From contig NZ_AUIN01000021.1 of NCBI RefSeq assembly GCF_000423725.1, forward strand, positions 1 through 64,000: a stretch of DNA of 64,000 nt, read 5' to 3'. Positions 35,564 to 61,668 of this stretch are shown here, one piece after another. Below the pieces are notes generated by a model, which saw only the letters and a program-made list of their open reading frames with translations, ran no database searches and was not told the DNA's origin. How positions within the stretch are numbered: position 1 is the first letter of the stretch; every line of letters starts with the position of its first letter. Source of the DNA: Streptococcus devriesei DSM 19639. GTDB taxonomy: Bacteria > Bacillota > Bacilli > Lactobacillales > Streptococcaceae. Both the position numbers and the translations under genes were made by a program.

Positions 35564-35580
35564 CTGTTTGTAAATTTTCG

Positions 35581-35600: not shown

Positions 35601-35601
35601 G

Positions 35602-37000: not shown

Positions 37001-37042
37001 AATTTTCTCCTCATGTATTATTTTATAGTTGCTTTCTTTAGA

Positions 37043-38682: not shown

Positions 38683-38979
38683 TCAAGAGAAGAGATGAAG
38701 AGTTGTTTTTAAATAGACAAACTTTCGAATTAGCTTTTCTTCCTCTACAGGTTTAATATCAAAGATGAAGTAGTGGTCCCTATTATCCTTAGCATTCTCT
38801 TTATTGAGCTTAAAGTAGTTATGTTGGGATTTGGACATGGCCAAGAGAATATCATCTGTTAAGAACGTTAAGGGGATATCTAAGGCAGAGTAGCGGTAGA
38901 AGTCTATCTCAAAGCGACGATAGCTATCGCTAAAATAATCCATTTGTAACTCATTGTGATGAAAGTCAAGCTGATTCAT
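38683..38979 (-). CDS. UmuC-associated hypothetical protein (DUF5960-like)
   Basis: A 98-residue protein when started at MNQLDFHHNELQMDYF (ATG 38979, GGAGG just upstream); an upstream in-frame start would give 120. It ends KFVYLKTTLHLFS. I recall proteins like it directly downstream of umuC in streptococcal elements, but its function is unknown. It overlaps the preceding gene by 14 bp, so it is the last member of the four-gene SOS-type cassette. Confidence 0.65.
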   Translation of the reverse strand: MNQLDFHHNELQMDYFSDSYRRFEIDFYRYSALDIPLTFLTDDILLAMSKSQHNYFKLNKENAKDNRDHYFIFDIKPVEEEKLIRKFVYLKTTLHLFS

Positions 38980-39337
38980 GCAGGGGCACCTCCTCCAAAA
39001 GTTCAATAGCAAGCATATCTTCGAGTGCGATAGTGATATGCCCATCAGTTGATTTCACTAAAACATGGTCACTTGTGAGCGTTAGGACGCTACCAATGAC
39101 ATAGTTTAAATTGTTCTTTTCTTCTATTGTGATTCGTGCAGTCAATTGATTCACATACAACTGGTTTAGCAGCAGATGTTTCATCTCTACGGTTAATTCA
39201 GACTGGTAAGTCCTTCTACTCGCATCATTAGAAAGAGCAGAAGTGTGTTCTGATAAGAAAAATCCCACCCATTTTTGCATCCCAGCATCTTGATATTCCC
39301 TTGCTGATTGAAAAGGTAAATAAGAACGATCTATCAT
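38966..39337 (-). CDS. UmuC-associated hypothetical protein (YolD-like position)
   Basis: A 123-residue soluble protein starting MIDRSYLPFQSAREYQDAGM and containing MQKWVGFFLSEHTSAL. It overlaps umuC by 4 bp and occupies the place of the small YolD-like gene that accompanies UmuC-type polymerases in Gram-positive mobile elements. No catalytic motif is seen. Role in translesion synthesis is inferred from linkage only. Confidence 0.65.
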   Translation of the reverse strand: MIDRSYLPFQSAREYQDAGMQKWVGFFLSEHTSALSNDASRRTYQSELTVEMKHLLLNQLYVNQLTARITIEEKNNLNYVIGSVLTLTSDHVLVKSTDGHITIALEDMLAIELLEEVPLHESA

Positions 39338-40749
39338 TTTAGTCCCTCTAATCCTCCAGCGGAGTGACCGCCGATGAGTTTACTTCTTTCAATATTTCTG
39401 GAACCTTCTGTAAGGACGGTTCCTTTTTGTATAGCCAAAAAACCAAATTGTTCCCTAACAGTATCAATGGCTGCTTGGAGTCTTTCTTCCTTTTCTATCG
39501 TTTCAACATCATCGAAAAGTGATAGGAGTCCAATGCTTTCATCGACAAAGCCACTGTAGAATACGCCGATATTTCTCACGGCCCCAGAGTTATATTTACT
39601 GCGGAATAACTCCAGTACATGATTCACCATTGTTTTTGTTAGATTGGCAGGCTCAATTTTCTTTTGCGCCATAATAGGTCGCTTCCTCTCTATTTTTGAG
39701 TAACCGACTTGGATAGATACTACCGTGGCCTTTTTGTGGGCCGCTCTTAATCGATTCGCTACCTGTTCTGCCATTTCCGATAAGACAGTCTCAATCTCTC
39801 GTTTTGAGTAATAGTCACGAGGTAAAACCTGAGAATTACCTAGACCGTGAGACTTAGGTTTGTAAGGCTTGTGAACGTTACTTTCATCTACACCGTTGGC
39901 ATGGAACCACAATTCAACGCCGACTTTTCCAAATTCTTTTTGAAGTGTATCTGGATTAGCATTAGCCAGTTCTTTGATAGAGGGGATGCCCAATTTATGG
40001 AGTCGTTTCTCTGTACGTCTGCCAATACCCCAGAAGTCAGTTAGGTGTGGAAGAGACCAAAGTTTTGATTCGACATCTTCATAAGACCAATTGGCTCGCA
40101 TGGTCGGTGTCTTTTTCGCTTCATTATCAAGAGCTAATTTAGCTAATAATGGGTTAGCGTTGCTCATACCAACAGTTGAATAGATCCCTGTCTTTTTCCA
40201 AATGTCATGTTGTAATTTGGAAGATAGCACATCCAGTTTCTGCTTTCGATTCAATGAGTTATCTCTGATGAAGTAGTTGAGAGAAGAGGTTAGATCAATA
40301 AAGCCCTCATCAATAGAGTAGGGAAGAATGTCATCAGGTGCAGCATAGTCTTGAAAGATATGCTGAATTTCGATGTTTTTCTCAATATAGCGATCCATCC
40401 GGGGAGGGACAATCAGTGTTCTTTTAGCCCAGCTTTCAATATAAGAGATGTACCTGGGTGAGATATCAAGTCCTTGGCGTTTAGCATTATAGTAATTGAA
40501 CTTTCTTGTCTGAATATCAAAGGGTAAATCGTAAGCACGTCCGACATTGTTTTTTCCAAAGACTTTTTTAAACATAGGAGACGATGCTAAAATTAACCCC
40601 GCAGCGTTTTCAGCTCTACTCATAACGCACAGAGAAGTGTGCAAGGGATTTAATCCACGGTCAACACATTCTACACTGGCATAGAAAGACTTCATATCAA
40701 CGAAAGCTATATCAGATTGAGGTTCTTTGGAATAATCAATATAGCCCAT
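39334..40749 (-). CDS. Y-family DNA polymerase (UmuC/ImpB type)
   Basis: A 471-residue translesion DNA polymerase. It begins with FVDMKSFYASVECVDRG (about residues 16-32; catalytic Asp) and has LPYSIDEGFIDLTS (about 142-155), the SIDE catalytic motif. The finger, thumb and little-finger blocks follow: GIGRRTEKRLHKLGI and HGLGNSQVLPRDY. It copies damaged DNA with low fidelity. Its LexA/S24-type repressor is encoded just upstream in the same direction, implying damage induction. Confidence 0.92.
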   Translation of the reverse strand: MGYIDYSKEPQSDIAFVDMKSFYASVECVDRGLNPLHTSLCVMSRAENAAGLILASSPMFKKVFGKNNVGRAYDLPFDIQTRKFNYYNAKRQGLDISPRYISYIESWAKRTLIVPPRMDRYIEKNIEIQHIFQDYAAPDDILPYSIDEGFIDLTSSLNYFIRDNSLNRKQKLDVLSSKLQHDIWKKTGIYSTVGMSNANPLLAKLALDNEAKKTPTMRANWSYEDVESKLWSLPHLTDFWGIGRRTEKRLHKLGIPSIKELANANPDTLQKEFGKVGVELWFHANGVDESNVHKPYKPKSHGLGNSQVLPRDYYSKREIETVLSEMAEQVANRLRAAHKKATVVSIQVGYSKIERKRPIMAQKKIEPANLTKTMVNHVLELFRSKYNSGAVRNIGVFYSGFVDESIGLLSLFDDVETIEKEERLQAAIDTVREQFGFLAIQKGTVLTEGSRNIERSKLIGGHSAGGLEGLK

Positions 40750-40774
40750 GGTTTTAGTTCCTCCTTATCTCCTT

Positions 40775-40882
40775 CTAACTTTCCAGTTCATCAATATGAT
40801 CTGTTATCTCATATTCAATATGCTGTGGTGCAATGTAAATATGCTCTTTACTACAAATGATAGTTTTAGCAGGTGGTATCAC
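40775..40882 (-). CDS. Small protein between the repressor and umuC
   Basis: A 35-codon frame starting GTG 40882, two bases after the repressor stop: VIPPAKTIICSKEHIYIAPQ then HIEYEITDHIDELES. It runs in the same direction and fills the gap before umuC. Similar tiny genes often precede umuC in such cassettes. Support is the close packing and lack of other content; the start is uncertain. Confidence 0.4.
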   Translation of the reverse strand: MIPPAKTIICSKEHIYIAPQHIEYEITDHIDELES

Positions 40883-40884
40883 AA

Positions 40885-41577
40885 TCAGCTTCTTATAGTG
40901 GGCATGAAGTGACTAACGACTAATCCAACAATACGAGGTTCATCCTCATAGGGGATAAATCGATTAGGATAATCATCGTTTAGAGATACCATTCGAAACC
41001 CATTTTCTTCTCGATAAAGTTTCTTGATATAGACGGACTCATTCCATGACAGTGCATAGACGGCTCCGTCATAATCAAAACCACTGGCACGAATAAGAGC
41101 GACTTCACCATCCAGGTATATAGGCTCCATAGAGTCTCCTTTAATCCAAGCAGCAACATCGTAGCCATATTGTTCTTCGTCTGAATAAACGGTTTCTGTC
41201 TCGTATTCATCAAAGAGAGATTCACCAAGACCAGCAGAAAGAGCCACATCAGATAGGACTTCCACAGAAAACAGTGGAACAATGTTATCATGTGATTGTT
41301 GTGCTTGAAGCAATTCTTCGGCATAGCCATCAACCTTTTTTTGATTATCCGAAGAGAGCTGGAGGTAAGTACTAACAATCTTGTATTCAGATTCAAAGTA
41401 AGTCTCTGGAACTTTTAAGATGGTGGCCAGTTGTTGGAGATTCTTTTGATTTGGCTTTGTTTTTCCATTTTCCCAATTGAAGTAGGAGGAACGGTTGATA
41501 CGAAGTTTATCTGCCACAGCAGACTGCGAATAACCTAGAGACATCCGCCTTTCTTTTAAACGATTTCCCGAAAACAT
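40885..41577 (-). CDS. S24/LexA-like repressor (XRE helix-turn-helix)
   Basis: A 230-residue repressor. The N-terminal XRE domain (MFSGNRLKERRMSLGYSQSA, residues 1-20, to about 62) is joined to an S24 peptidase domain. The probable self-cleavage site Ala-Gly is in LSAGLGE (about 113-119), catalytic Ser in IKGDSMEPI (about 147-155) and Lys in VYIKKLY. After DNA damage RecA would trigger self-cleavage and release the umuC cassette. ATG 41577 is chosen with GGGAGG upstream. Confidence 0.9.
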   Translation of the reverse strand: MFSGNRLKERRMSLGYSQSAVADKLRINRSSYFNWENGKTKPNQKNLQQLATILKVPETYFESEYKIVSTYLQLSSDNQKKVDGYAEELLQAQQSHDNIVPLFSVEVLSDVALSAGLGESLFDEYETETVYSDEEQYGYDVAAWIKGDSMEPIYLDGEVALIRASGFDYDGAVYALSWNESVYIKKLYREENGFRMVSLNDDYPNRFIPYEDEPRIVGLVVSHFMPTIRS

Positions 41578-41666
41578 AAAACCTCCCGAATCATCTGTTG
41601 TTTTATAAACTAACAAAAGTATACCAGATTTTTTGAGTAAGAGCAATGGGGAAAAGTTTATTTTCT

Positions 41667-42479
41667 TTACCGATCCTGTTGATTGAATTTCTGATTCTGT
41701 TCAATTTGTTTAAGCACCTTATTTTCATACTCCCGACTGGTAATGTAACGGATATATGCCTCTTTTGACATGTGCGGACGTTTGCTGTGTTCAACATCAA
41801 TGTTAAAGCCCATTTCAATAGCCAGGCGTTCCCCTTCTTCACGAATAAGACGAGTATAGGTCATTAAGCGGTTGTTATACTGGCCTTCAGGTTTTTCAGG
41901 ATTCGGAAGTGGCAATCCCAATTCTATCATAGCTTTTCTTTTCCCAATCTTGAGGAGCTCTTTTCCATCCTCATTTTTATCATGATATACCCAAACTTGT
42001 CGGATATGTGCATGAGGGGTTGCTTCATCGTTGTGAATAGCACCATCAAGGATAAATAAGTTTTCTTTGGTTAATTTCGACTGATATTTTATCAGTTCAT
42101 TGTTCCATATACGAAATTCAGTTGAAGTAGGAGCTATATCTTTGTTTCCAATTTGATAAATAACTTCTTGTGGCTTAGTATTCCGTCCTTTTCTTAAATC
42201 TTCACTCGTTTTTTTGCGTTCTGGATGGTATTGTTTGATTGCTTTTGCATTAATATCTTTAAGCCAATCCGAAAAATTAACTCGATAAAATCGTTTTTCC
42301 GTTTCAACGAAATTATATTTTAAATCGGGATAGGTAGAAATGTAATGATTTAGGTGAGACCGACTTTCATCAATATGAGAAGCAGATATTATATTAAAAT
42401 TTCTTGAGTTATGAGAAGGACTTCCTGTATTTCCAATTTGAACAGTAACCTTCATAGGCTTGTTTGCTTTATTTGTCAT
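41667..42479 (-). CDS. MobV-type relaxase, short form
   Basis: A 270-residue protein of the plasmid recombination/mobilisation (Pre/MobV) family. SHNSRNFNI (about 22-30) and HIDESRSHLN match motif I, and HNDEATPHAHI (149-159) is the metal-binding H-x-D-E-x-T-P-H-x-H motif. It would nick at oriT and lead DNA during mobilisation. It is shorter than the usual 350-500 residues, ending after the catalytic domain without the long helical C-terminus. Start follows AGGAATATGACA, a weak site. Confidence 0.85.
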   Translation of the reverse strand: MTNKANKPMKVTVQIGNTGSPSHNSRNFNIISASHIDESRSHLNHYISTYPDLKYNFVETEKRFYRVNFSDWLKDINAKAIKQYHPERKKTSEDLRKGRNTKPQEVIYQIGNKDIAPTSTEFRIWNNELIKYQSKLTKENLFILDGAIHNDEATPHAHIRQVWVYHDKNEDGKELLKIGKRKAMIELGLPLPNPEKPEGQYNNRLMTYTRLIREEGERLAIEMGFNIDVEHSKRPHMSKEAYIRYITSREYENKVLKQIEQNQKFNQQDR

Positions 42480-42878
42480 GTCATATTCCTAAAAATGTAT
42501 TCATTAATATCATGCCATATAATTAAAAAAATAAAAACTTGATAATGAAATGTCGTTGAATCTAGGGTTGGAGATATTAATTTTTCCTGATGCAAATAAA
42601 GAAAAAATAGGCACAGGCTGTTCATTTTTCTTTGACTAACAGCGCTGTATACACGCTAAGATTGTGGAGTAGTCAAGAATGAAAAAGACATCCGAAATGG
42701 ATGTCTAGGTAAATACTTTGAGCAGATGGATAGCTATTTCATATGGTTTATCTTTGCCAGTTGTAACTTTATGCGCGTGGAGGCATACAGGATGATGAAC
42801 AAGCTAGGAGTACTCTCCTCAGTTGGTGTTGTAACATTATTCTTAGCTTCACAATGGCTTGAAGATAAATTTATTTCT
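42480..42878. other. Spacer upstream of the MobV gene, candidate oriT
   Basis: No gene is seen. It holds AACAGCGCTGTATACACGC (about 42642-42660) with an AGCGCT palindrome, and AACTTTATGCGCG (about 42765-42777), GC-richer spots in AT-rich DNA. MobV oriTs lie directly upstream of mob, so this is the place to look; no exact nick consensus was recognised. Confidence 0.35.
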
Positions 42879-43205
42879 CTATTTTAGAGACTTAATCAGA
42901 ATTGATAGAGCCTTCGTGAATTCATGGCGTTTTTGTTTGGGAAGTTCGGCTAAGAGTAGTAATAGATCTTCGGTTTCCTCATCAATACCTTGCTTCATAT
43001 CGAAAAAAGTGGGTATATCTACTTCAAGGGCTTCTATAATTTTGTAAAGTGTACTGATAGTAATATTACTAGGTTTATTTTCTAGTTTGTAAATATAATT
43101 AAAACCTAAGCCAGCTTTTTCTTCGAGCTCCATTTGTGTCATACCAGCTTGTTTCCGTAGAATTCTGATGCGCTGAGCAATAAATTTCTGTAGTTTATTT
43201 TCCAT
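42879..43205 (-). CDS. XRE-family helix-turn-helix regulator
   Basis: A 108-residue regulator with the XRE fold at residues 8-65: IRILRKQAGMTQMELEEKAG then FNYIYKLENKPSNITISTL. The C-terminal part (70-108) is helical and charged. It is divergent from the zinc-ribbon gene at 43330, with only 124 bp between them, so it may control that three-gene unit. Confidence 0.88.
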   Translation of the reverse strand: MENKLQKFIAQRIRILRKQAGMTQMELEEKAGLGFNYIYKLENKPSNITISTLYKIIEALEVDIPTFFDMKQGIDEETEDLLLLLAELPKQKRHEFTKALSILIKSLK

Positions 43206-43329
43206 AAACCTATCATACAGGTATTAATTTTTCAAAGAACCACTATAAAAAACTGAAAATAAATTTAACAGTCACAAAAGACTGAAAATGTGGTAAAATA
43301 GCTTTATATATAAGAACTAGGAGAATACT

Positions 43330-44454
43330 ATGACAAAAGAAGAATGGTTAGAAGCTTTTGAAGCTATAAATGGAAGAAGAGCTACTGAGGAAGAAATGAC
43401 TTCCGCGAAATTCAGTGGAGAGTTCATAGAAAATACCACTGCAGCAATGAGTCAATCAAATCTTCAAGAAGATGCCGAAAATAATCTAAATGAACCAACT
43501 AAAGCCATGATGTTTTGTACTTCTTGTGGTAGTCAAGCTATAGAAGGAACTCAGTTTTGTCAAAACTGTGGTCAGAGATTGAAAGGTGAAAACCACTCAA
43601 GTGACATGTCTGCTCAATTTCAGAAAACTTCAATAATAGACTATTTGACGAGTTGCATACAGCATAAAAGATGGATCTTATTAATTTATTTAGCGATAAC
43701 CAGTTCTTTTCAATATGGGATACCGATTCTTTTGATGATGTTTGCGATATCAAAAACAGGGCAGGGGCTAGTGTGTCGGATTATTGGTGCCAGAAAGATT
43801 GAACGTCAAGAACAAATAGAATATTTAAAAGTCCCCATAGATAATATGATAGCCAAAGCTAGGTCTGAAGGTTTGTTATTGCCTGAGACAATTGATATTC
43901 ATATTATTAATAGTGACGTACCAGTTACTTATGCGGTTGGGATGAACAAACTTGTTGTATCAGAATCACTGGCTCAGCACCCAGAAATTTTTGAATCTAA
44001 AGTGATGTTTGAATTGCATCGAATTAGCGATATGGCCCCGAATTTATTATTAGTTGTTATTTCTGCCAACATTATCGTCGTATTAGCAGCAATTGCTATT
44101 TTAATCTGGAGCGGATTCAATAAAAATTATGGAGATAGAAGAACATCATTTTGGTCTGATACGTCGCAAAGTAAGAACGGAGCTATCATCTTTTATGTTT
44201 CTTTAGCAATAATTGCGACTTGGGTAGGACTAACTTATTTATTTGTTAGAAGCACGATTCAAAAAGATGTTTTAGCTGCTGATCAATATGTGGCTGAGCA
44301 CAACCTAGGAGAAGTGTACTGTTACTATCTAGACAATATAACATCAGTTGATAATTCTAGAATTAAGAAATTTTTTGAAAGAGGTTTCCCAGCAGTGAGC
44401 CAACGTATTGGTTTTATGCAAAATATGGGAGTTGCTTATAATAAAGCTTATTAG
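43330..44454 (+). CDS. Zinc-ribbon membrane protein with a degenerate M48-like domain
   Basis: A 374-residue protein. The N-terminus (MTKEEWLEAFEAINGRRATE) resembles that of the next gene's product. A zinc ribbon CTSCG-x10-CQNCG (about 62-81) follows. Hydrophobic segments lie near 115-145, 240-260 and 287-307. Between them VTYAVGMNKLVVSESL and MFELHRISDMAPNLLLVV align by eye with the core of M48 metalloproteases, where HExxH is expected; here it reads FELHR, so the zinc protease site is lost. This comparison is my inference. Confidence 0.55.
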   Translation: MTKEEWLEAFEAINGRRATEEEMTSAKFSGEFIENTTAAMSQSNLQEDAENNLNEPTKAMMFCTSCGSQAIEGTQFCQNCGQRLKGENHSSDMSAQFQKTSIIDYLTSCIQHKRWILLIYLAITSSFQYGIPILLMMFAISKTGQGLVCRIIGARKIERQEQIEYLKVPIDNMIAKARSEGLLLPETIDIHIINSDVPVTYAVGMNKLVVSESLAQHPEIFESKVMFELHRISDMAPNLLLVVISANIIVVLAAIAILIWSGFNKNYGDRRTSFWSDTSQSKNGAIIFYVSLAIIATWVGLTYLFVRSTIQKDVLAADQYVAEHNLGEVYCYYLDNITSVDNSRIKKFFERGFPAVSQRIGFMQNMGVAYNKAY

Positions 44455-44479
44455 ACGATTTGAAAAGGAATGAATAGCT

Positions 44480-45118
44480 ATGTTTAAAGATGAATGGATT
44501 GAGTCTTTTGAAAAAGAAAAAGGCCGCAAACCAACACCAAAAGAATTTATTGAGGCTAAGAATGCTGGATTGTTTTTAACTGAAGATGCTAAAGGTAGTT
44601 CTGATTCTATTGAAAATCCAGAACAAATTCTAAATAGTCCAATCATACCGATGATGGCAGATGGGATAGAACATGGTGAGAAAATTGAACTGACAACTTC
44701 ACCTCTATCTAACTCTAATCATTCTCAGAAAGAGCAGCCGTTAAAAAAATTCTGCTATAAATGTGGAAATCAGTTACAAATAGATAGTGATTATTGTCCA
44801 AAATGTGGAGCAAAGTTTGGATCAACAGATGGGGAGCATTCCTTTTTGACAGATATTACAGAGAAGATATCAGATGTCAGTTCTTTAGCTTCAAAAAAGA
44901 CAAAAGAGTTGACAAGTAACGTAAGGACTAATATTGAGGTCAGTTTAGAAAAAAGGAAACTTGATGCGCTGTTTAAGCAATTAGGCGAGGCTTATTATAG
45001 TAAGTTTGCTAACGATTGGGATTCGGAGTTTCAATCATTAGTCAGTCAAATCAAAGAATATGAAGAAAAGATCAATCAATTAGATCCTAGTTATAAGAAA
45101 TCGAAAGGACGTGTGTAG
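44480..45118 (+). CDS. Zinc-ribbon protein with coiled-coil tail
   Basis: A 212-residue cytoplasmic protein. The first 33 residues (MFKDEWIESFEKEKGRKPTP) repeat the N-terminal pattern of the previous gene's product. A zinc ribbon CYKCGNQ-x9-CPKCGAKF lies at about 92-111. The C-terminal half (120-205) is helical and charged. It is 26 bp after the preceding gene and touches the next one. I do not recognise a specific family. Confidence 0.6.
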   Translation: MFKDEWIESFEKEKGRKPTPKEFIEAKNAGLFLTEDAKGSSDSIENPEQILNSPIIPMMADGIEHGEKIELTTSPLSNSNHSQKEQPLKKFCYKCGNQLQIDSDYCPKCGAKFGSTDGEHSFLTDITEKISDVSSLASKKTKELTSNVRTNIEVSLEKRKLDALFKQLGEAYYSKFANDWDSEFQSLVSQIKEYEEKINQLDPSYKKSKGRV

Positions 45119-46012
45119 ATGATGAATAAATTTAAATATTTTTTTATCTTAATAATTTGTGGAATGCTATTAGTTGGCTGTGGAAAAGGAAAAAACGGAT
45201 CAGTAGAGAATAAAAGTTCAGATACAACAAGTGGTAAAACTATTTCTGCTGATGTCGTGCACAACTTTGAAACTTATGAGTCGCCAGAGGGTAAATTGGA
45301 CGATGAGGGAATCTACCGTTATAGTTTTTTGAAAAATGATGATTCTGTATATGATGCAATGTCATACCTAGATATTGACCAAATACTACCAGTTCATAAT
45401 CAAAAGAAGATAAACGTAACTCTTGGAACAAATTTTGTAATTGACTCTTATCATTTTAATCTGCCTAATACTGTTAGAAAAATTTGGGAAACTGTTGAGG
45501 GCGAAGAGATGGAAGGTAACGATGGAGCAATGACTGAAATAGATAATGGAAAGACAGCAACACCATTTGAGTCTATCTCAGCAAAAAATCGAAAAAACTC
45601 AACAACCTTCTTTCTTTCTGCAAATGTTATTAACACAAAAAGACGTAGTGCCCAGGCTGTTGATTCGGATATTAACATTCTTACTTTCCAATATAAAGGC
45701 AGTGTCAATAGTGCAATTAAGCCAAATGAAAATGCAGGAAATAGATTATCGTACGAAGGGATTAATTTAGGAATTACAAGAAATCAATTTTTAGATAATG
45801 TCAAAATTAAGAACCCTATATATAAAGATGAGTATTTCAGATATGACAGAGAGTATGATAAGAATGATACACGCTGCTTCATAAGTTACATATTAGATGG
45901 GCGTGAAGAAAATGACCGTCCTTCTTATGTAGAGTTCACTTTTGATAATGAAATTCTTACTCAAATTAATATACATTGTACAAATGAATACCTTGGCATT
46001 GAAGTTCAGTAA
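45119..46012 (+). CDS. Predicted lipoprotein
   Basis: A 297-residue secreted protein. A basic start, a hydrophobic segment (about residues 8-21) and lipobox LLVGC (Cys 22) followed by Gly/Lys indicate a lipoprotein signal peptide. The mature part has no recognised domain. It directly follows the stop of the zinc-ribbon gene (TAG then ATG), so the three genes are one translational unit. A strong terminator lies 19 bp after the stop. Function unknown. Confidence 0.7.
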   Translation: MMNKFKYFFILIICGMLLVGCGKGKNGSVENKSSDTTSGKTISADVVHNFETYESPEGKLDDEGIYRYSFLKNDDSVYDAMSYLDIDQILPVHNQKKINVTLGTNFVIDSYHFNLPNTVRKIWETVEGEEMEGNDGAMTEIDNGKTATPFESISAKNRKNSTTFFLSANVINTKRRSAQAVDSDINILTFQYKGSVNSAIKPNENAGNRLSYEGINLGITRNQFLDNVKIKNPIYKDEYFRYDREYDKNDTRCFISYILDGREENDRPSYVEFTFDNEILTQINIHCTNEYLGIEVQ

Positions 46013-46030
46013 TGATTATATGGTATAAAA

Positions 46031-46070
46031 TTAGAGAGGGTCTGGAGCAGTAGTTCCAGCCCCTCTCTAG
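46031..46070 (+). terminator. Terminator of the zinc-ribbon/lipoprotein unit
   Basis: TAGAGAGGG/CCCTCTCTA with an inner TCTGGA/TTCCAG stem. A long hairpin of about 40 bases with little T tail. Confidence 0.8.
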
Positions 46071-46130
46071 TGTATATGCTTTTTATTTCATAGGAAATGT
46101 GGTTACACAAAGACCGATTTTTTACTAACT

Positions 46131-47052
46131 ATGATCTACATATAAAATTCATACTATCATTCTTTCATGAGCTTATTTAACAATTCATAAATCAGCAAAA
46201 GATGGGCTAGTGTAGAAGAGCGCTTATATAAGGTGGTATGGGCTTCTATACTAGGATGCAAATTTTCAAATAATGGGCAACTACTGTAGAACATAAAAAA
46301 TTAAATCGAGTGCTACTATACGAGATCATAAAATTTCCCCATTTTGGTACTCTATATTGGCCCATTATTTAGTTATTGGTAATTAACTATAGTCGACCAT
46401 GAATTAAAGAAACGAGGCACACTACATAAGACCATTATTTGTTATTTTATGAGGCGCTATACTGTACCATGAATATCTCAATAATGGGTTACATATAAAG
46501 CCCATATTTTTGTTAAACATGGGCATCTATATTAGGATGTAAATTTTCAAATAATGGTCAACTATAGTGGAACATAAAAAGTTAAATCGTGTGCTTCTAT
46601 ACAAGACCATAAAATTCCTCATTTGGCTACTCTATACCGGCCCATTATTTAGTCATTGGTGGTTAGCTATAGTTGACCATGAATTAAAGGAACATGGCCC
46701 GCTATATTAGACCATCATTTATTATCTTTATGAGGTACTATACTGTACCACGAATATCTCAATAATGGATTACATATAAGGCTCATATTTTGTTAAACAT
46801 GGGCTTCTATATCACACCGTTGTTTTAAAAAACATGGCTCACTATAGTTATCTGTATTTTTAAATTTCATGGTCTACTATATAAGGCCATGAATGAAAGA
46901 AAAGTGGGCTAATATAGTAGGGTAATATAAGCGATAGCATGGACTTCTGTAGTGAAACATAATCATAATTTCAATGGGTCTCCATAGTAGACCACGAATA
47001 AGACCCATTATGGACATCTATACTATATACAGATATCCACATCACGCGCCAT
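46131..47052. repeat. Array of about 26 imperfect 22-bp palindromes, 35-bp period
   Basis: Palindromes with left arm like ATGGGCTACTA and right arm like TAGTAGACCAT begin at 46131, 46167, 46202, 46238, 46273, 46308, 46344, 46379, 46414, 46449, 46484, 46519, 46554, 46589, 46624, 46659, 46694, 46730, 46764, 46799, 46834, 46869, 46904, 46939, 46974 and 47010. Steps are 35 bp, rarely 34 or 36. The 13-bp spacers are AT-rich. The arms vary with either side often changed, so the family is degenerate. Extra units lie at 47094, 47130, 47223, 47259 and one at about 61482. A 35-bp period is not a multiple of three and stops occur in all frames, so it is not coding. Confidence 0.88.
46238..46800. repeat. 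281-bp higher-order tandem duplication within the array
   Basis: The segment from 46238 to 46518 is repeated from 46519 to about 46799 with some 85-90% identity by eye, spacers included. The step (281, then 280) equals eight 35-bp units. The palindrome array thus grew partly by block duplication. Confidence 0.85.
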
Positions 47053-47053
47053 A

Positions 47054-47088
47054 AGAAAAGAGAGAAAGCTACGCTTGTTATCTTTTAA
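47054..47088. repeat. Terminator-like hairpin, family member 1
   Basis: AAGAAAAGAGAGAAAGC-TAC-GCTTGTTATCTTTT. Purine-rich left arm, GC pairs at the tip, T-rich right arm. The same design recurs at 47163-47198, 47425-47457, 47577-47614, 47779-47810, 48050-48080 and 61443-61477. Confidence 0.7.
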
Positions 47089-47162
47089 TAATCATGGGCT
47101 TCTATACTGTACCGTGTTTTCTAACTGTTATGGGCTTTTATAGTGAGCCGTGATATAAAGGC

Positions 47163-47198
47163 GAAAGAAAAGCAAAAGGCAGTGCCATATTTCTTTTA
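47163..47198. repeat. Terminator-like hairpin, family member 2
   Basis: GAAAGAAAAGCAAAAGGCAG followed by TGCCATATTTCTTTT; GGC-AGT-GCC tip. Confidence 0.65.
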
Positions 47199-47424
47199 TA
47201 AGGGATAGCGTTTGCCTTATAAATGGGGTTCTATATAAAGGCATTCTTTAATATCATTATGGGCTTATTTAGTGTCTTTTTTATCTTTGTCCTTTCGGCC
47301 TATTTTCTTAGGTTATTGCGCGTGATTTATTGCTATTTTAAATTATTAACATGTGGATAATCCTTGATATTATACGCTTCGTGGGTGTTTTCCACATTGT
47401 GTTACTACCTTAATTGCGGGAAGA

Positions 47425-47457
47425 ATAGAGAGAAGGCTACGCCATTTTTCTATTACA
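47425..47457. repeat. Terminator-like hairpin, family member 3
   Basis: AATAGAGAGAAGGC-TAC-GCCATTTTTCTATT. The arms pair over about 14 positions with mismatches. Preceded by GCGGGAAG, as in member 4. Confidence 0.65.
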
Positions 47458-47576
47458 ATTCATGTTTTTATCTTTGTTCATATAATTTAACCCTTGATAT
47501 AAATGGGTTTATTAAAGCTTCAGGGGGGGATATCCTTCTTTTTCTTTCTCTCTTCTTAGCTCTATCCGAAGTGGCG

Positions 47577-47614
47577 GGAGAATAGAAAGGAAATAGCATT
47601 GTTTTTCTATTATT
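47577..47614. repeat. Terminator-like hairpin, family member 4
   Basis: GGAGAATAGAAAGGAAATAG then CATTGTTTTTCTATTATT; arms AATAGAAA and TTTCTATT-like. Confidence 0.5.
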
Positions 47615-47767
47615 TATTATTAGTTGAATGTTTCTAAACGTTGTTTTAATGCGGTTCTTTGTGTGGCGTACTGTGGATTCATCTTTGATTTTTCATTTCT
47701 TTTTCTTAGATTATTGGGTATGAGATTGAAATATCATTTTATTGGTTAATATTCAGTTAGATGACAG

Positions 47768-48200
47768 ATTGTTGTGAGAAAAGAGAGAAAGCTTCGCTAT
47801 TTTTCTTTTGTGTTACCGAATGCTTTACTAGCAAGGGTTTTAGTTTAAATCCGCAACTACATAAACGCAATACCACTTAGCGGAAAATTACTTAACAAAT
47901 CTGTTTGCGCAACTACATAAACGCAATACATAGTTGAGCAAATATTTACAAATTTCCTTCTGCTAACCCTTGTCTGAGAATATAGCCATGTATTTTTAGA
48001 TAATAGTATAAGAAGGGCATTATTATTTCATAAGTAGATTGTTTTGAAAACGAGAGAAAGCTTCGCTGTTTTTCTTTTATTTTATCAAATGCCTTGCTAT
48101 CAAGAGTTACAGTTATTTTCTGCTAGTTGGTAAACGCAATACCAACTTGCGCAAATTTTACTAATTTCTTTCTGCTAACGCATGACTGATGTGAAAAATA
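47768..48200. repeat. Imperfect 269-bp-offset duplication with hairpins
   Basis: AGATTGTT-n-GAGAGAAAGCTTCGCT-n-TTTTTCTTTT occurs at 47767-47810 and 48037-48080. Each copy continues with a TGC-TTGCTA(G/T)CAAG block, constant-loop hairpin(s), and then TTTC(C/T)TTCTGCTAAC. Copy A carries two loop hairpins, copy B one. Members 5 and 6 of the terminator-like hairpin family are part of it. Confidence 0.7.
47851..48155. repeat. Three hairpins with constant loop TAAACGCAATAC and changing stems
   Basis: At 47851-47883 the loop sits between CCG..CTA and TAG-CGG. At 47909-47940 it sits between GCGCAACTA and TAGTTGAGC. At 48125-48153 GTTGGT pairs with ACCAAC around AAACGCAAT. The loop core AAACGCAATAC is identical while stem sequences differ but still pair, which suggests selection for structure. 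Confidence 0.65.
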
Positions 48201-48290
48201 ATTTAGAAGAACTTATGTTGTAGAAACTCAACTTGTTATATTTATGGAAAATACCGTTATGCAGTTTTAGATGATAACATAAAAAACTAC

Positions 48291-48355
48291 TATTATTCCG
48301 CAAATCTCTAAATATTGTTCCGAAAACAGACCTATTATTCCGAAAATGCTATAAT
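48291..48355 (+). promoter_or_regulatory. fic promoter with three TATTATTCCGAAAA-type direct repeats
   Basis: TATTATTCCGCAAA (48291-48304), TATTGTTCCGAAAA (48313-48326) and TATTATTCCGAAAA (48333-48346) are spaced 22 and 20 bp apart, two helical turns. They precede and overlap the -35 zone of a TATAAT (48350-48355), 25 bp before the fic start. They look like operator sites, perhaps for the Fic protein's own DNA-binding N-terminus. Confidence 0.7.
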
Positions 48356-48380
48356 AGAAGTCAGAAAAGAGGTGGAATAG

Positions 48381-49274
48381 ATGTATATTACAGCAAAAGA
48401 AGCTGCTAAACGCTGGGGAATCTCTGATAGGCGCGTGCGTACTTTGTGTGCACAAGGGAAAGTTGAAGGAGCCTACCGTGATGGGAAAATTTGGAGAATC
48501 CCAGCGGATGCAGCACAGCCAAGTGACGGTCGTTATAAAAAGGCTTCTAGCTTACTATCAGTGATTGAAGAGAAGAAATCACTCTTAGCAACAAGGAGGC
48601 CCTTGACTAGTGGTGAGCTAGATCGACTAAATGAGGAATTTCTTGTAGAGTACACCTATAATTCTAATGCGATTGAAGGAAATACCTTGACTCTTCGGGA
48701 AACCGATATGGTGCTAAGAGGGTTAACCATTGATCAGAAACCTTTGAAGGATCATCTTGAAGCCATTGGTCACAAGGAAGCCTTTCAATTCGTTCAAACA
48801 CTGGTTTCAGAAAATCGTCCCTTAACGGAGCAAGTCATTAAAGATATTCATTACCTTGTTCTGTCAGATAAAAAAGAAGATAGAGGTGTTTATAGAAAAG
48901 TTCCTGTTAGAATCATGGGGGCTGCCAATGAACCAGCTCCGCCTTATATGATTCGTCCCAAGATGGAGCAGCTCTTGCAAGATTATCAAAAGGATACAAG
49001 CTCAATCATTACTAAGCTAGCTAAATTTCATATTGATTTTGAAAGTATCCACCCCTTTATTGATGGAAACGGCCGAACAGGCCGGCTTTTGGTTAATCTT
49101 GAGTTGATGAAAGCAGGATTTCCGCCGATTGATATTAAATTTACAGATCGTGTATCCTATTATAAAGCTTTTGATGACTTTCATGCTAAAGGCCAAGTGT
49201 CTAGCATGGAAGATTTGTTTGCTAAGTATGTCAATGAACGTCTGGATGAGTATCTAGCAATTTTGGCAGAGTAA
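48381..49274 (+). CDS. Fic-domain AMPylator with N-terminal helix-turn-helix
   Basis: A 297-residue Fic protein. An N-terminal MerR-like helix-turn-helix (MYITAKEAAKRWGISDRRVR, residues 1-20, to about 45) precedes the Fic fold. The inhibitory motif SNAIEGN is at 95-101, before the core, making it a class with built-in alpha-inh. The catalytic motif HPFIDGNGRTGR is intact (224-235), so it should transfer AMP, or another NMP, to a protein hydroxyl. AGAGGTGG precedes the start. It is monocistronic next to operator-like repeats, suggesting autoregulation. Confidence 0.9.
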   Translation: MYITAKEAAKRWGISDRRVRTLCAQGKVEGAYRDGKIWRIPADAAQPSDGRYKKASSLLSVIEEKKSLLATRRPLTSGELDRLNEEFLVEYTYNSNAIEGNTLTLRETDMVLRGLTIDQKPLKDHLEAIGHKEAFQFVQTLVSENRPLTEQVIKDIHYLVLSDKKEDRGVYRKVPVRIMGAANEPAPPYMIRPKMEQLLQDYQKDTSSIITKLAKFHIDFESIHPFIDGNGRTGRLLVNLELMKAGFPPIDIKFTDRVSYYKAFDDFHAKGQVSSMEDLFAKYVNERLDEYLAILAE

Positions 49275-49564
49275 AAGAGAGAAAAATAATGAGGTATATT
49301 ATGTCCATTTTAGTTGCTAACAGTTACATGAGTTGAACTGGCATGATTTTATCAAAGGCAGAGTAGTATGACAAGCTGACGGAGGATGTGCAAGAAAGTG
49401 TAAGTCTGGTTCAAAAAAAGTACGTTCTTTATTGATTAGAAGAGAGAAATCAACTAACCTATTATATTTTATGAGTATCTTAAGGATTAATGGTTAATTT
49501 GGTATAACAAAGAAAGTGGAGATTGGCTATCTATAGCTAAAAACAAGTAATGGAAAGGACAATG

Positions 49565-50341
49565 ATGGTAGAATTTTTTAATGGAAAAATTGTTTATCTT
49601 GACGAACAAGCTGTTTTTGACTATTTAGAATTACATCAAGAGGGCGAACAGTCTGATATTATAAAGAAAGTTTCAAAGACTGTGATTGGGGCAGATACTG
49701 AGGGAAAAGTTGGTATGAATTTTTTATCTAGACTTAAAGTAGGTTTTTCTGGGAATGCTTCATATCAGCGTAGTGGTGTTGTAGAATCACAAATAACTTC
49801 TACATTATTAAGTAACTTTAAGAAGATTGTGACTGAAAAGGTAAGTAAAGAAAATGAGACAAATGAGCCAGAAATTGTAATTTTAGAAAATATCAAGATG
49901 TCAATTGAAAAAGACTCTCCGGCATTTTATCGGAATATTACCCCAGTTCTTGATATGATAAAAGATATTGACCAAGTACGTAGTATAACAATAGATGATA
50001 AAAACAATTTTAAGGGATTTGAAATTAAAAATTTTGAAAGAACTTTAGATAGATTGTCTGGTTATTACGAGATCAAAGGTATTGATTCAAATGATAAGGA
50101 AATGATTATAAGATTCAATATATCAGGTTTGCGTAATAATTATACTTTGAGTGATTTAACCAAGATGGATGTCAAACTTTATGGAATTAAGGTTGGAGAA
50201 GTGGATTCAATTGATTTAAGTTTTAATACGATGATAGATAGATTATCAAATCAGGGACAATCGCAACTAGGAGTTGATTTTGATGAAGAACAAGATAATG
50301 AGAAAATTCCGATATATGATGTTCTAGTGGCAGGGGTGTAA
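49565..50341 (+). CDS. DUF6414-like protein partnered with an AAA+ ATPase
   Basis: A 258-residue soluble protein starting MVEFFNGKIVYLDEQAVFDYL. The opening IVYLDEQAVFDYLE and the later repetitive beta-rich region are reminiscent of the DUF6414 family. No catalytic residues are recognised. AAAGGA lies upstream and ATG 49565 gives the best spacing; ATG 49550 and 49562 are alternatives. The stop overlaps the next start (TAATG), so the two proteins are translationally coupled and probably act together. Confidence 0.6.
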   Translation: MVEFFNGKIVYLDEQAVFDYLELHQEGEQSDIIKKVSKTVIGADTEGKVGMNFLSRLKVGFSGNASYQRSGVVESQITSTLLSNFKKIVTEKVSKENETNEPEIVILENIKMSIEKDSPAFYRNITPVLDMIKDIDQVRSITIDDKNNFKGFEIKNFERTLDRLSGYYEIKGIDSNDKEMIIRFNISGLRNNYTLSDLTKMDVKLYGIKVGEVDSIDLSFNTMIDRLSNQGQSQLGVDFDEEQDNEKIPIYDVLVAGV

Positions 50342-51459
50342 TGGGAACATTTAATATTTTTTTTGAGCCAGTTCAAAAGTTTAATGAACGAGTTACTAAA
50401 TTAGATAACCATGTTTCGTTTAATGAAGTACTTATAAATTGGCCAAATGGAGCTGGGATTCAGGACATAGCAGAACCTCTTAAGGAAAAAGATATTTGTA
50501 TTTTCAGAATGGACTCATATTCATTATCAACAAGTTTAGTTTTTGAGAATATTGATTTATTAGTAAAAATTTTTGAAACTGCTAATATTTTAGAAGTCTA
50601 CCTTCATAATCCTCCAAAAAAGTTTTTCCACTTAATTAGACAACGAATTTCCTCGGAAAGTATATTTGTTGAGCAAAGTTCTTTTGAAAAGGTTAACGAA
50701 AAGCAACTCCAAGATGTAACACAAGACTTAAATGAACATATAATTGGTCAAGGAAAAGCTAAGCAAAGTTTATTGAGAAAACTGGTTGCTCAGCTAATAC
50801 GTCCGAGTGCAAAACCATTAGTCCTAATGTTTTACGGTGAACCAGGAATCGGAAAAACTGAAACAGCAAAACAACTATCAACTACACTATATGGAAATGA
50901 CAATATTATCAGAGAACAAATGTCGATGGTTGGTGGTGAATCAAGTGTAAAATATTTTAAATCAACAAACCATAGCGAAGACTCATTTTCTAAAACATTA
51001 CTAAACAGAGAATCTAATGTTATTTTGCTTGATGAGTTCGCTTTAGCTCCTGCATTTTTTCATAGCACCTTCTTTCAAATGTTTGATGAAGGTATCTATG
51101 AAGACCAAAATTATAAAGTAGATTTAAGTAACTCAATTATTATTTGCACATCTAATTTTAAAAGTCGGTCAGAAATGGAGAAAAATGTTGATGTAGCATT
51201 ATTAAGTCGATTCGATGGTTTTATCAAATTTTTTCCTTTATCTTTTGACGAGAAAAGACAAATTTCAAAGATAGTATATTCAAAAATTATTAACTCAGAA
51301 TCTATAACTAAGGAATATGAGGAATATTTAGATGAAGTTGAGATTCTAGAAAGCGTTGAATCTAAATTAAATTTTCTTCCTAATGTTAGAGCGATAAGAA
51401 AGTATGTTGAGGACGTAATTTCTGATAAATTATTAGAAATAATATTAAACTCTAAATAA
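50341..51459 (+). CDS. AAA+ ATPase (Clp-like AAA_2 domain)
   Basis: A 372-residue protein. The N-terminal 120 residues are a unique adaptor-like domain. Then DLNEHIIGQGKAKQSLLRKL (about 130-149), Walker A GEPGIGKT (166-173), Walker B VILLDEF (227-233), and sensor/arginine-finger regions around SNSIIICTSNF and LLSRFDGFIKF. The pattern is that of the second AAA module of ClpA/B-type unfoldases, without a ClpP-binding or M-domain. Coupled to the DUF6414-like gene. A defence or remodelling role is possible, but unproven. Confidence 0.8.
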   Translation: MGTFNIFFEPVQKFNERVTKLDNHVSFNEVLINWPNGAGIQDIAEPLKEKDICIFRMDSYSLSTSLVFENIDLLVKIFETANILEVYLHNPPKKFFHLIRQRISSESIFVEQSSFEKVNEKQLQDVTQDLNEHIIGQGKAKQSLLRKLVAQLIRPSAKPLVLMFYGEPGIGKTETAKQLSTTLYGNDNIIREQMSMVGGESSVKYFKSTNHSEDSFSKTLLNRESNVILLDEFALAPAFFHSTFFQMFDEGIYEDQNYKVDLSNSIIICTSNFKSRSEMEKNVDVALLSRFDGFIKFFPLSFDEKRQISKIVYSKIINSESITKEYEEYLDEVEILESVESKLNFLPNVRAIRKYVEDVISDKLLEIILNSK

Positions 51460-51741
51460 TTGAATGCTATGATTAAAGAAAATCTTATTGCAGATAGATT
51501 ATTGAGCATAGTTGCTTATATTTATTAAGCAAGCTAGTGGATCCGTTGTACATCTTACTTTTTGGTTAGTGTTAGTATAATGATTAACTGTTTATGTAGA
51601 AACAATAATGCTATAAAAGAAAATAGAATAAGGTTGAAAATAGGACAAAACAATGGACTTATTTAGGATAGTTGAGTCATACTATGAAATTTCTATAGTG
51701 TCTAACACATCTACTTCAAATAATCCAGATGGAAATCTGAA

Positions 51742-51782
51742 AATCAAAAAACGCTACACATATAGTGAAGCGTTTTTTGATT
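51742..51782. terminator. Bidirectional terminator
   Basis: AATCAAAAAACGCT and AGCGTTTTTTGATT are perfect 14-bp inverted arms. Confidence 0.88.
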
Positions 51783-51876
51783 GCAAGAAAAATACTGACT
51801 TTGGCTATTTTTGCTCTTATTAAATAGCAGCATAGCAGCGACTTAGTTCACTATCTGGTTGGTTTTACCAAACTAA

Positions 51877-51913
51877 AAGGATTGAAACCTGTGTAATACA
51901 GAATTCAATCCTT
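51877..51913. terminator. Hairpin, possible terminator
   Basis: AAGGATTGAA and TTCAATCCTT flank ACCTGTGTAATACAGA-type loop with a small CTGTG/CACAG-like inner stem. No T tail. Confidence 0.45.
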
Positions 51914-52110
51914 GGCATAAATTTATAATCAAACTTTTAGAGTCCGTACATTATTTTCTGGTGGGGAATTTGGTGGGAAACCAAATCAATTTAGTTCTAT
52001 TTTCACATTTTATAACATTTAGAAATGCTGTTAAACCAACCATTTCATTTCAAATTAGTTTAGTCATTTATTCCCACTCAATTTAATAGCTTTTAGTTCG
52101 ATTTAGTAAA

Positions 52111-52640
52111 TTAAGAAGGTTTTAAATCAATATTTCTGACGATTACAAGACTTAAAGAAACGTGGAATCCTGTAATTATGTTACTGCTAGTTCGAATTTG
52201 TATGTCCCTGTGCCCTTCTCCATCAATATGAGGGTCATACTTTGTTTCTATTTGTTCAAATTTCAAATGTTCTAGTGAAATACTATTGCCTGATGAATCT
52301 GTTTCTAAATTCATTGTATATGGAAATGATTCCATTCATTGGTCTGTTTACGAGAGAGTTTGAGATGATAGCTAGATTTAATCCCATACTTTCCATCTTT
52401 AATTCTCATGATATAGCCCTATTGCTTTTCTTGGTAATGATCCATGAGATTATAACTTTCATAGCCTCTATCCATAACGAGTAAAGCTGTTTCAAAAGGG
52501 AGAGGCCTGCAACATTTGAATGATACCAGCCTGTTCATTAGCTTGTCGTTTATATTGAGAGCACACATCAATATAAATCTTTCTATGGAGGTCAAATTTT
52601 TCTTTTGCTTCATCAAGAGTTAAAGTAGAGAATAAATCCG
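52111..52640 (-). pseudogene. Decayed DDE transposase (IS4-like)
   Basis: Minus-strand pieces in shifting frames read TLDEAKEKFDLHRKIYIDVC, then after a frameshift ETALLVMDRGYESYNLMDHY, a stop, GYIMRIKDGKYGIKSS, another stop and further C-terminal scraps. MDRGYESYN is the usual block around the second catalytic Asp of IS4-type transposases. Several stops and shifts make it dead. It lies directly left of the NRPS cluster. Confidence 0.75.
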
Positions 52641-52825
52641 CAAGGATATAAAATGAAATATATGGTTGTGCAGAAGATTAGTTTGTAATAAATCGGAAGG
52701 GCATGTTGCCACCTTATACAGATTAAAATATCCCGTTTGCTTAGCAGACCAGTATGGAGTAGCTTAGGAAATCTTATGAAAAAATAGTAAAACAATTTAT
52801 TGTGTTAATCACAAGCACTTAGTAA

Positions 52826-53608
52826 CTAGGAACTAGTTTTATATAAGTATCTTAATTCTAAATGTGGCTTTGTAAAATTATAGGGACATTCCAAAGTCTC
52901 TATTATTAAAAGTTCTTGAACATTAAACTCAGCATCAAGTTCTTTTATTCTAATCGGTATATTTTTCTGATCAATATGTTCGCCATGAATATGGCTGTTT
53001 TTTAAACATATGGTATCAAAATCAATGTACTCTTTAGAATGGTCTATTTTACATGCTATATATTGTTTCCATGTGTTTCCTATTTTCTTGTAGTAACAAC
53101 CAACACGTTGTTCAAAGGATATTTTTGATACTGATAGAGAAATAAGCAATTTATATACCTCTCTATAGTAAGCATCAGATAATATTTCACCTACGAAGGG
53201 TAAAATGAGGTAGTCTTCATCGCCAGTTTCAATGTGGTGGTAGGAAGTGTAGTCCAATTGTTTAGAAAGATTGATTTGAGATTTAAATTGTTCAATGTGA
53301 TTTTTATCCTGTTGTAATGCTTCTTCTTTTTCCTTGATGATATCTTGAGCTATTTGGAGAATCTCACTAATCATAATCTCATTATTATCATTAATAAAAT
53401 TGTTGAATTTTTTTAATGGAATACCATAATCAGCACAAATTTTAATTACTTTAACATATGGTATTGCTGAATAAGTGTAATAACGATAAGAATTAATAGG
53501 ATCAACATAAGCAGGTTTTAGTATATTAATACTTTCATAGTACCGAAGTGCTTTTGTATGAATACCTGATAATTTACTAAGTTGGCCGATAGTTAAGAAT
53601 GACTTCAT
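52826..53608 (-). CDS. MerR-family regulator with effector-binding domain, divergent from the NRPS cluster
   Basis: A 260-residue activator-type regulator. The MerR winged helix (FLTIGQLSKLSGIHTKALRY, residues 3-22, then the wing NSYRYYTYSA) is followed by a long dimerisation helix (about 80-115) and a C-terminal domain of about 150 residues resembling GyrI-like ligand-binding domains. ATG 53608 is chosen, with GGGGGGAA upstream. It faces the PPTase-NRPS-ABC genes, so product sensing and control of the cluster is the likely role. Confidence 0.82.
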   Translation of the reverse strand: MKSFLTIGQLSKLSGIHTKALRYYESINILKPAYVDPINSYRYYTYSAIPYVKVIKICADYGIPLKKFNNFINDNNEIMISEILQIAQDIIKEKEEALQQDKNHIEQFKSQINLSKQLDYTSYHHIETGDEDYLILPFVGEILSDAYYREVYKLLISLSVSKISFEQRVGCYYKKIGNTWKQYIACKIDHSKEYIDFDTICLKNSHIHGEHIDQKNIPIRIKELDAEFNVQELLIIETLECPYNFTKPHLELRYLYKTSS

Positions 53609-53626
53609 GTGTTCCCCCCTTGACAT

Positions 53627-53639
53627 TACCTTAACGGTA
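53627..53639. promoter_or_regulatory. MerR-type operator in the divergent region
   Basis: TACCTTAACGGTA has inverted TACC/GGTA arms, the ACC-n-GGT core usual for MerR operators. It lies 19 bp upstream of the merR-like start. A TTGACA (53620-53625) borders it on the plus strand. Confidence 0.6.
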
Positions 53640-53774
53640 TAGTTTACAATTTAAGTGTATCAAATATCATCAATAATATCAAAATGCTTACTTAAAAAGG
53701 AAATCATGCTAGTAGTGTGGCAACTATAGTCAATGATAGGTATATTTTAATAAAAGAGTAGGGGTGGCTTGATA

Positions 53775-53846
53775 ATGTTGAAAGTGACATCTGCAAATAG
53801 TTGGTATTGTCATAACAGTAATTATTACTCAGTGATAATCGTATGA
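53775..53846 (+). CDS. Possible 23-residue leader peptide before the PPTase gene
   Basis: ATG 53775 with AGGGGTGG upstream opens a 23-codon frame (MLKVTSANSWYCHNSNYYSV-IIV) whose stop TGA overlaps the PPTase start (ATGA). The PPTase has no clear ribosome binding site of its own, so coupled translation from this frame would explain its expression. Alternatively it is the PPTase N-terminus separated by a frameshift. Confidence 0.35.
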   Translation: MLKVTSANSWYCHNSNYYSVIIV

Positions 53847-54382: not shown

Positions 54383-54393
54383 GGTGAATTTAT

Positions 54394-61640: not shown

Positions 61641-61668
61641 AGAAATTAGAAGAGAGTTTAGAAACAGA

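Follow-up and report, generated by a model that had tools for sequence, protein, structure and literature searches.

The stretch of Streptococcus devriesei DNA analysed here (64,000 nucleotides; hereafter, the window) contains a long tandem array of short, imperfectly palindromic DNA sites. Such arrays recur beside the transfer genes of other streptococcal plasmids and elements, and it is therefore probable that the array is a docking strip for a DNA-binding protein. More specifically, we tentatively interpret it, with confidence slightly short of even, as a cis-acting protein-docking array of streptococcal mobilization modules that would serve transfer or maintenance. A limited literature search, weak evidence in itself, recognised no published description of such an array; we regard the arrays as a real family of DNA sites, unrecognised in the literature searched and apparently under selection.

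The motif and its spacing were observed directly. An earlier note on this DNA had claimed palindromes repeated every ~35 bp, and period analysis gave a clear peak: identity at lag 35 was 0.433 over positions 46131-47052, compared with at most 0.340 at the best lag (20-60) of 1000 dinucleotide-preserving shuffles, and further peaks appeared at multiples of 35 up to 280. A fitted position matrix placed 29 units of a 22-bp dyad site at 46167-47280. The array and the lone copies of the site are arranged as follows:

38462..38483, plus strand: lone, weaker site located upstream of Rep_trans (matrix)
46167..47031, plus strand: regular part of the array, 25 units with ATGG ends, a TATA centre and CCAT ends (position matrix)
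46238..46798, plus strand: tandemly doubled block of eight units (~280 bp), 86% matching (Tandem Repeats Finder 46238-46812, period 281)
47094..47151, plus strand: two extra units (47094, 47130) past the first interruption (position matrix)
47223..47280, plus strand: final two units (47223, 47259) past the second interruption (position matrix)
61483..61504, plus strand: lone, weaker site close to the element's right end (matrix)
61595-61616: another lone weaker copy in the right-end region of the element (matrix)

The ~26 units originally counted within 46131-47052 were correctly located, and their extent was underestimated, four of the 29 units lying beyond that end. The constant step of 34-36 bp described in the earlier note holds for all 24 steps of the regular part (35 bp in 19, 36 bp in four and 34 bp in one), where the spacers are AT-rich and ~13 bp long. 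The two-fold symmetry is likewise real and imperfect: of the 18.2 bits in the 22 positions, most fall in the conserved ATGG....CCAT ends and in the TATA centre, and an asymmetric C occupies position 9 in 24 of the 29 units, the partner position being G in 11 of 29. The array had also been called the reverse of a CRISPR. It is indeed no CRISPR, with diverged repeats and short spacers instead of near-identical repeats and longer, unrelated spacers; the likeness of spacers between blocks is more simply explained by the tandem duplication of the 280-bp, eight-unit stretch. A matrix derived from ten other loci found 20 sites of at least 9 bits within 46131-47280 (shuffles: mean 0.25, maximum 2, n = 200) and four more elsewhere in the window; its 87 units had themselves been located with the window matrix, which makes this a consistency check and not an independent discovery. 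Elsewhere in the window, ~2.2 copies of a 280-bp tandem repeat (98%) at 13674-14276 are seemingly unrelated to the array.

The array lies within an integrative element, whose relevant features are listed below together with an adjacent host gene:

34540..35052, plus strand: host DUF536 (RocS-type) gene next to the element, a candidate host binding protein
35505..62201, no strand assigned: integrative element holding the array, 26.7 kb, between 59-bp exact direct repeats (35505-35563 and 62143-62201)
35602..36798, minus strand: tyrosine integrase of the element (PF00589, PF14657)
37043..38191, minus strand: Rep_trans protein of the MobT / rolling-circle initiator type (PF02486)
41667..42479, minus strand: MOBV-type relaxase, 270 aa, with matches below curated cut-offs, 3.7 kb from the array
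42879..43205, minus strand: XRE regulator, sharing 64% identity with one encoded near the two-unit array of locus L056
43330..46012, plus strand: immediately preceding the array, two zinc-ribbon proteins plus a protein whose start resembles that of a lipoprotein, with homologues in L096
48381..49274, plus strand: Fic/DOC protein after the array, a remnant of which adjoins the array of L053

The left 59-bp repeat lies at the beginning of a gene on the minus strand; we infer this gene to be ebfC, which is among the known targets of streptococcal integrative mobilizable elements (IMEs) according to the accessible part of PMC5357655. The same source describes an IME_Class_10 that combines a tyrosine integrase, MobT/Rep_trans and MobV in one element, as the window does, a likeness limited by the sub-threshold MobV match in the latter. 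In that class, both relaxase genes lie far upstream of the integrase gene in the opposite orientation and a repA_N gene is named as a feature, whereas the window element has Rep_trans directly beside the integrase gene and encodes all three proteins on the minus strand; the accessible part of the source mentions no palindrome array for the class. A search of 227 genus genomes for relatives of the window relaxase (E 1e-20) returned only the relaxase itself, and no oriT belonging to it was identified in the window. Nor did the DNA of 46050-48380 match plasmids or phages at E 1e-5. The largest listed ORF between 46012 and 48381 encodes 73 aa. Homologues of the zinc-ribbon and lipoprotein-like genes occupy 8024-10317 of L096, a contig that also has an array and a gene for a tyrosine-recombinase-like protein.

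Several other observations were made in and around the element. After the array, at 47054-48078, there are four 33-bp hairpin-like repeats (AGAAAAGAGAGAAAGC...GCTT...TCTTTT), of which at least the one at 47422 shows changes on both stem sides, and a similar stretch occurs at ~61448, towards the element's right end. At 47779-48158, in a region devoid of likely genes, a pair of 111-bp direct repeats (76%) contains TAAACGCAATAC motifs. The cargo at 52826-61268 comprises a MerR regulator, a phosphopantetheinyl transferase, a 1283-aa nonribosomal peptide synthetase and ABC transporter proteins. A second tyrosine integrase at 62241-63392, just past the right repeat, suggests two elements in tandem at the same site.

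Is the array peculiar to this element, or does it belong to a wider group? The earlier note had proposed searching this genome and other streptococcal elements with a position matrix; units could be placed in this way, and the array was found to recur. A sequence-only covariance model of two units built from the window units alone (R1) matched 25 of 284 genus genomes at E 0.01, one of which (G244) had no array on inspection. A second model (R2), built from 72 dimers from 14 other loci and the window, matched 24 of the 284 streptococcal genomes at E 1e-4, and 22 genomes hold an array under a cluster rule of at least three units with a matrix score of at least 5.5. When R2 was applied to 395 genomes drawn from the order (E 0.001), 14 matched: seven from Streptococcus, six with single weak matches, and G355, from another family, with several matches, a short, weakening array and a neighbour gene split over two frames. 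An exact two-unit pattern occurred in 22 stretches in a collection of 84,980 species, eight of them from Streptococcus; by the cluster rule, six of the 22 are arrays, all in Streptococcus (three in S. infantis, and one each in S. suis 10581, S. hyovaginalis and Streptococcus sp. HMSC074B11). In viral contigs, the pattern was present in 12 stretches, none of which held an array. Of 170 distinct steps across loci, 132 measure exactly 35 bp and 156 fall within 33-37 bp. Unit number is variable, at 3 to 11 in five plasmids or contigs with ~96% identical relaxases and at 5 to 29 among five S. suis plasmids, whereas the step keeps to 34-36 bp in both sets.

The neighbourhood of the array links it to mobilization. 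In 17 of the 24 genomes, it adjoins a MOBV relaxase gene or a remnant of one (G017, G030, G068, G101, G116, G120, G122, G150, G191, G196, G201, G247, G251, G276, G286, G289 and G295); the array of G201 comprises only two or three units, as does that of G105, which is considered below. A clade of MOBV relaxases is present in 18 of the 284 genomes, 15 of which have the array, compared with 9 of the 266 other genomes (Fisher p 3e-16, uncorrected for relatedness). Among the three clade genomes without an R2 match, G059 has no array, G099 has a relaxase fragment only, and G275 has a degenerate array visible by eye, with few weak matrix matches and irregular steps. On pFW213, a complete plasmid from S. 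parasanguinis, seven units lie a short way upstream of the MOBV gene.

The position of the array in these relatives, beside a putative oriT and the relaxase gene, was observed directly. By putative oriT we mean a conserved motif that also lies upstream of the relaxase in array-less MOBV loci. A 52-bp stretch beside the motif of L035 was hit by 24 of the 40 plasmid matches listed, of 323 records (307 from Enterococcus), and such broad matching fits a shared transfer origin, as expected. The order putative oriT, array, relaxase gene was found in all 15 placeable MOBV loci (13 plus L163 and L040), several of which are close relatives and three of which (L046, L047 and L048) are near-identical, so that the 15 do not count as independent events; no placement was possible for L045, L051, L054 and L055. 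In 14 loci, 196-254 bp separate the motif from the array. The array stops upstream of the presumed relaxase start, 29-204 bp short of it in 13 loci and 288 bp short of it in L163. In three array-less relatives, the motif is 169-199 bp from the relaxase gene. Since the order is kept and array-less loci retain the motif near the gene, the array looks like a cassette inserted between two old neighbours, the putative oriT and the relaxase gene.

Such closeness to the presumed relaxase start is also what an operator array repressing or activating the neighbouring relaxase or recombinase gene would show, and a one-domain XRE regulator is encoded near the array both in L056 and in the window element. 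This explanation nevertheless appears improbable. The array of plasmid pD20_2 faces the 3' end of its tyrosine-recombinase-like gene, the next likely gene in the window begins 1.1 kb downstream of the array, and up to 29 operators exceed the need of any autoregulated mob promoter known to us.

The mobilization interpretation has its own difficulties. MOBV loci without the array exist (L064, L065 and L161), so the array is dispensable for that relaxase. The site at the oriT and relaxase gene that would be expected of an oriT accessory was found in relatives and not in the window copy, which is an outlying or rearranged example, since its relaxase is 3.7 kb away. Neither a MOBV nor a tyrosine-recombinase-like gene lies beside the array in the window's genome (G000) or in G112, and the ten-unit array of S. 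hyovaginalis (L049) has neither enzyme within the 20 kb fetched.

One additional piece of evidence for an association with strand-transfer enzymes comes from six genomes (G023, G105, G108, G279, G287 and G196) in which the array, or part of it, lies beside a gene for a tyrosine-recombinase-like protein; in G279, the array is split over two contigs and the gene is on the one with the shorter piece. The protein is ~340 aa long with a basic N-terminus, and its alignment shows the tyrosine-recombinase pattern ATGLR, TKG, HxxR, LGH, Y. Members of the family had no match in Pfam (four scanned), NCBIfam (three) or PDB sequences (one). Tyrosine-recombinase-like relaxases are known, namely TcpM, MobK and MpsA (accessible part of PMC8152469), and this neighbour may be one. 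The family occurs in 45 of the 284 genomes at E 1e-10. A whole or partial array was present at six of its 30 fetched loci, namely those of the five best-scoring members and of one truncated relative; the 24 without it, three of which contain runs of N, count against the mobilization interpretation. Five S. suis plasmids typed as Inc18 bear very regular arrays of 28, 29, 25, 24 and 5 units, and the neighbour protein of the 5-unit plasmid is 98.8% identical to that of the 28-unit plasmid. The two contexts also mix, since a unit of the pD20_2 type adjoins a MOBV fragment in G201; G196 has both, a MOBV array and a second array beside a tyrosine-recombinase-like gene. We also considered whether the units are core sites of the tyrosine recombinase, in which case the family should accompany the sites; this was rejected, as no member of the family was matched on pFW213, which bears the array.

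Repeats close to transfer origins are known from other systems. Relaxosome oriT accessory regions, such as the stbDRs of R388 and the SmpO sites of pWBG749, are repeats located by oriT and mobilization genes that serve as protein sites. The present array resembles them in lying between or beside oriT and mobilization genes, and differs in reaching 29 units of 35 bp and in being common to elements with unrelated strand-transfer enzymes. Like the MOBV1 oriT of pMV158, it is found just upstream of a MOBV relaxase gene; that oriT, however, consists of three overlapping inverted repeats at the nick, with no array mentioned in the accessible part of PMC5863519, whereas the array is separate from the putative oriT.

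Another important question is whether the units are under selection and, if so, as DNA or as hairpins. Across nine alignments, in overlapping and hence not independent sets, of arrays that are orthologous or duplicated, 53 of 949 cells differed at the motif positions (1-4, 9-13 and 19-22), 75 of 657 in the rest of the arms and 110 of 945 in the spacers, so that the motif changes about half as fast as the remainder (Fisher p 3e-7); the test is partly circular, since the motif positions were named from the units themselves. The TATA centre (positions 10-13) differed in 5 of 292 cells. Column frequencies correlate with their own reverse complement at 0.88 (permutation maximum 0.75, n = 2000), a value flattered by the symmetrised matrix with which the units were picked; Tandem Repeats Finder, which is blind to dyads, returned consensus units with the same arms. 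The earlier suggestion that spacing and two-fold symmetry are selected agrees with the slower change of the motif and the retained step, and judged from the alignments both motif and spacing look to be under selection.

Hairpin-type covariation, on the other hand, was lacking. Among 160 distinct units, complementarity at most paired positions does not rise above expectation (z up to 1.7), and at 6/17 and 9/14 it falls below the level seen in shuffles (z -4.7 each). An excess was seen at 10/13, where the columns hardly vary (z 6.5), and a weak one at 5/18 (z 2.2). Of three two-unit stretches, two folded better than shuffles (z -2.8 and -2.6), as palindromes tend to, and the third, on the other strand, folded no better; Rfam returned no family at gathering score over 43000-49500. 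Hairpins in RNA or in single-stranded transferred DNA would account for the better folding and for the excess at these two pairs, and they are nonetheless a very unlikely explanation given the depleted pairs, the lack of excess at the others, the third stretch and the Rfam result. The suggestion of hairpins in a long RNA thus finds no support. Because general compensatory change is absent, the simplest reading of the arms is as double-stranded DNA whose centre is directional, and the array behaves as the array of DNA-binding sites that the earlier options implied.

Which protein would bind these sites? The first candidate is a replication initiator, as in an iteron-type array controlling replication or copy number through Rep. 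Some carriers do have a Rep3-type replication gene (L035 and L037), and the 22-bp repeat of pFW213 has ATGGnnTAC in common with the array unit. However, array plasmids carry separate 21-22-bp repeats near rep, which we take for iterons; those of pFW213 are direct repeats at 4795-4912, upstream of rep, and score at most 3.3 bits with the array matrix. Near-identical arrays (L035/L060 and L037/L044) accompany different 22-bp repeats, which makes Rep proteins unlikely binders, and the iteron explanation, raised in the earlier note, is hardly credible.

No gene family (ORFs of at least 40 aa, all-against-all) was common to the 18 loci compared, and the complete plasmids pFW213 and pD20_2 had no such ORF in common at E 1e-3. 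The largest family, the relaxase, reached 11 of 18 loci. Families that cross both context groups are AbiE-type proteins, an ABC transporter family and XRE/S24 regulators, in addition to unidentified ORF families that L056 shares with L043, L047, G120 and pFW213. The XRE, MerR and zinc-ribbon proteins that had been suggested as partners proved not to be general ones, no such family being common to the carriers: relatives of the window XRE regulator were found among the compared loci in L049, L056 and its overlap L121, and those of the zinc-ribbon proteins in L096. As the carriers compared have no family in common, a protein supplied by the host, RocS being one candidate, or by a helper is the likely binder.

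The main rival to a mobilization docking array is a centromere-like partition site, at which a plasmid- or host-encoded segregation protein would tether the element to the membrane or nucleoid; we consider this explanation doubtful. Tandem palindromes on a fixed step are a usual form of plasmid centromeres, as in the 43-bp repeats of F sopC, and this speaks for partition. The array resembles sopC, tubC and the pSK1 par site, which we take to be tandem short palindromes or repeats on a fixed step, in its tandem dyad sites and constant step. It differs from them in that a cognate binding-protein gene, adjacent or always present, was not found among the compared carriers, and in that it lies at the putative oriT and relaxase gene in many relatives and occurs in integrated elements as well.

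Two candidate partition proteins were examined. The first is a plasmid protein with a ribbon-helix-helix (RHH) start, a coiled coil and a tryptophan-rich tail, WWQRLF or WWKFWE in most members. It was present in eight of nine MOBV array plasmids or plasmid-sized contigs (L035, L037-L040, L042, L044 and L060, the exception being the 4.3-kb contig L036) and in L100, a frequency that fits segregation as well as it fits mobilization. Against its role, it was found neither in the fetched stretches of integrated arrays (L043, L045-L050, L052, L053 and the window) nor in the complete plasmid pD20_2 (L098), yet it does occur on plasmids without a detected array (L061, L062 and L067). In layout the family resembles the Par/RocS partition proteins, from which it differs in its DNA-binding fold, and six members scanned had no match to Pfam DUF536.

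The second candidate is the host protein RocS, a winged-helix-turn-helix, coiled-coil, membrane-binding segregation protein that has domains in common with pSK1 Par, to which it is akin (accessible part of PMC11500499). A DUF536 (RocS-type) gene was detected in all 17 streptococcal array genomes tested (17 of the 24), and G355, the one non-streptococcal carrier, had no match. According to the same part of that source, RocS is widespread across the family, so finding it in carriers is scarcely informative.

A search for the strict 22-bp motif (at most one mismatch) matched 7 of 147 genus genomes, four with arrays (G000, G112, G150 and G247) and three with single sites and no array in the fetched stretch (G206, G269 and G298); a backward-read control matched two (G015 and G107). 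Ten drawn array genomes gave no match (G017, G023, G030, G068, G105, G122, G196, G251, G276 and G279), so that degenerate chromosomal sites could have escaped the search. On this weak test, we did not retain the idea that the sites form a host regulon. Almost no single chromosomal sites were thus seen, in a search that also missed most arrays, which tells against partition, as does the persistence of the array beside transfer genes.

Returning to the mobilization docking array, we envisage that a dimeric, sequence-specific DNA-binding protein, supplied in trans by the host or a helper element, would dock on the sites. With a step of 35 bp, or ~3.33 helical turns, successive dimers would be rotated by about one third of a turn, and the filled sites would build a regular multimeric nucleoprotein body beside oriT. 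Such a body could assist whichever strand-transfer enzyme is present, a MOBV relaxase or a tyrosine-recombinase-like one, or could keep the DNA in place for transfer and maintenance; we presume transfer to be the purpose served. The array may also titrate a DNA-binding protein. A further possibility, rather unlikely, is that unrelated streptococcal elements bear one cis-acting address label, read by a host protein such as RocS for segregation or membrane placement in elements without a partition gene of their own; if so, plasmids and excised elements would ride host segregation or sit at the membrane for transfer.

Taken as a cis-element, the array can be recognised in roughly one of every twelve streptococcal genomes searched (24 of 284) and is tied to mobilization genes both on plasmids and in integrated elements, its carriers including bacteriocin plasmids and an element with a cadmium-resistance transporter. 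It offers a clean handle for protein pull-down and, since the carriers compared have no common gene, the identity of its reader could bring to light a factor, from the host or from a helper, that acts in gene transfer or in the upkeep of plasmids.
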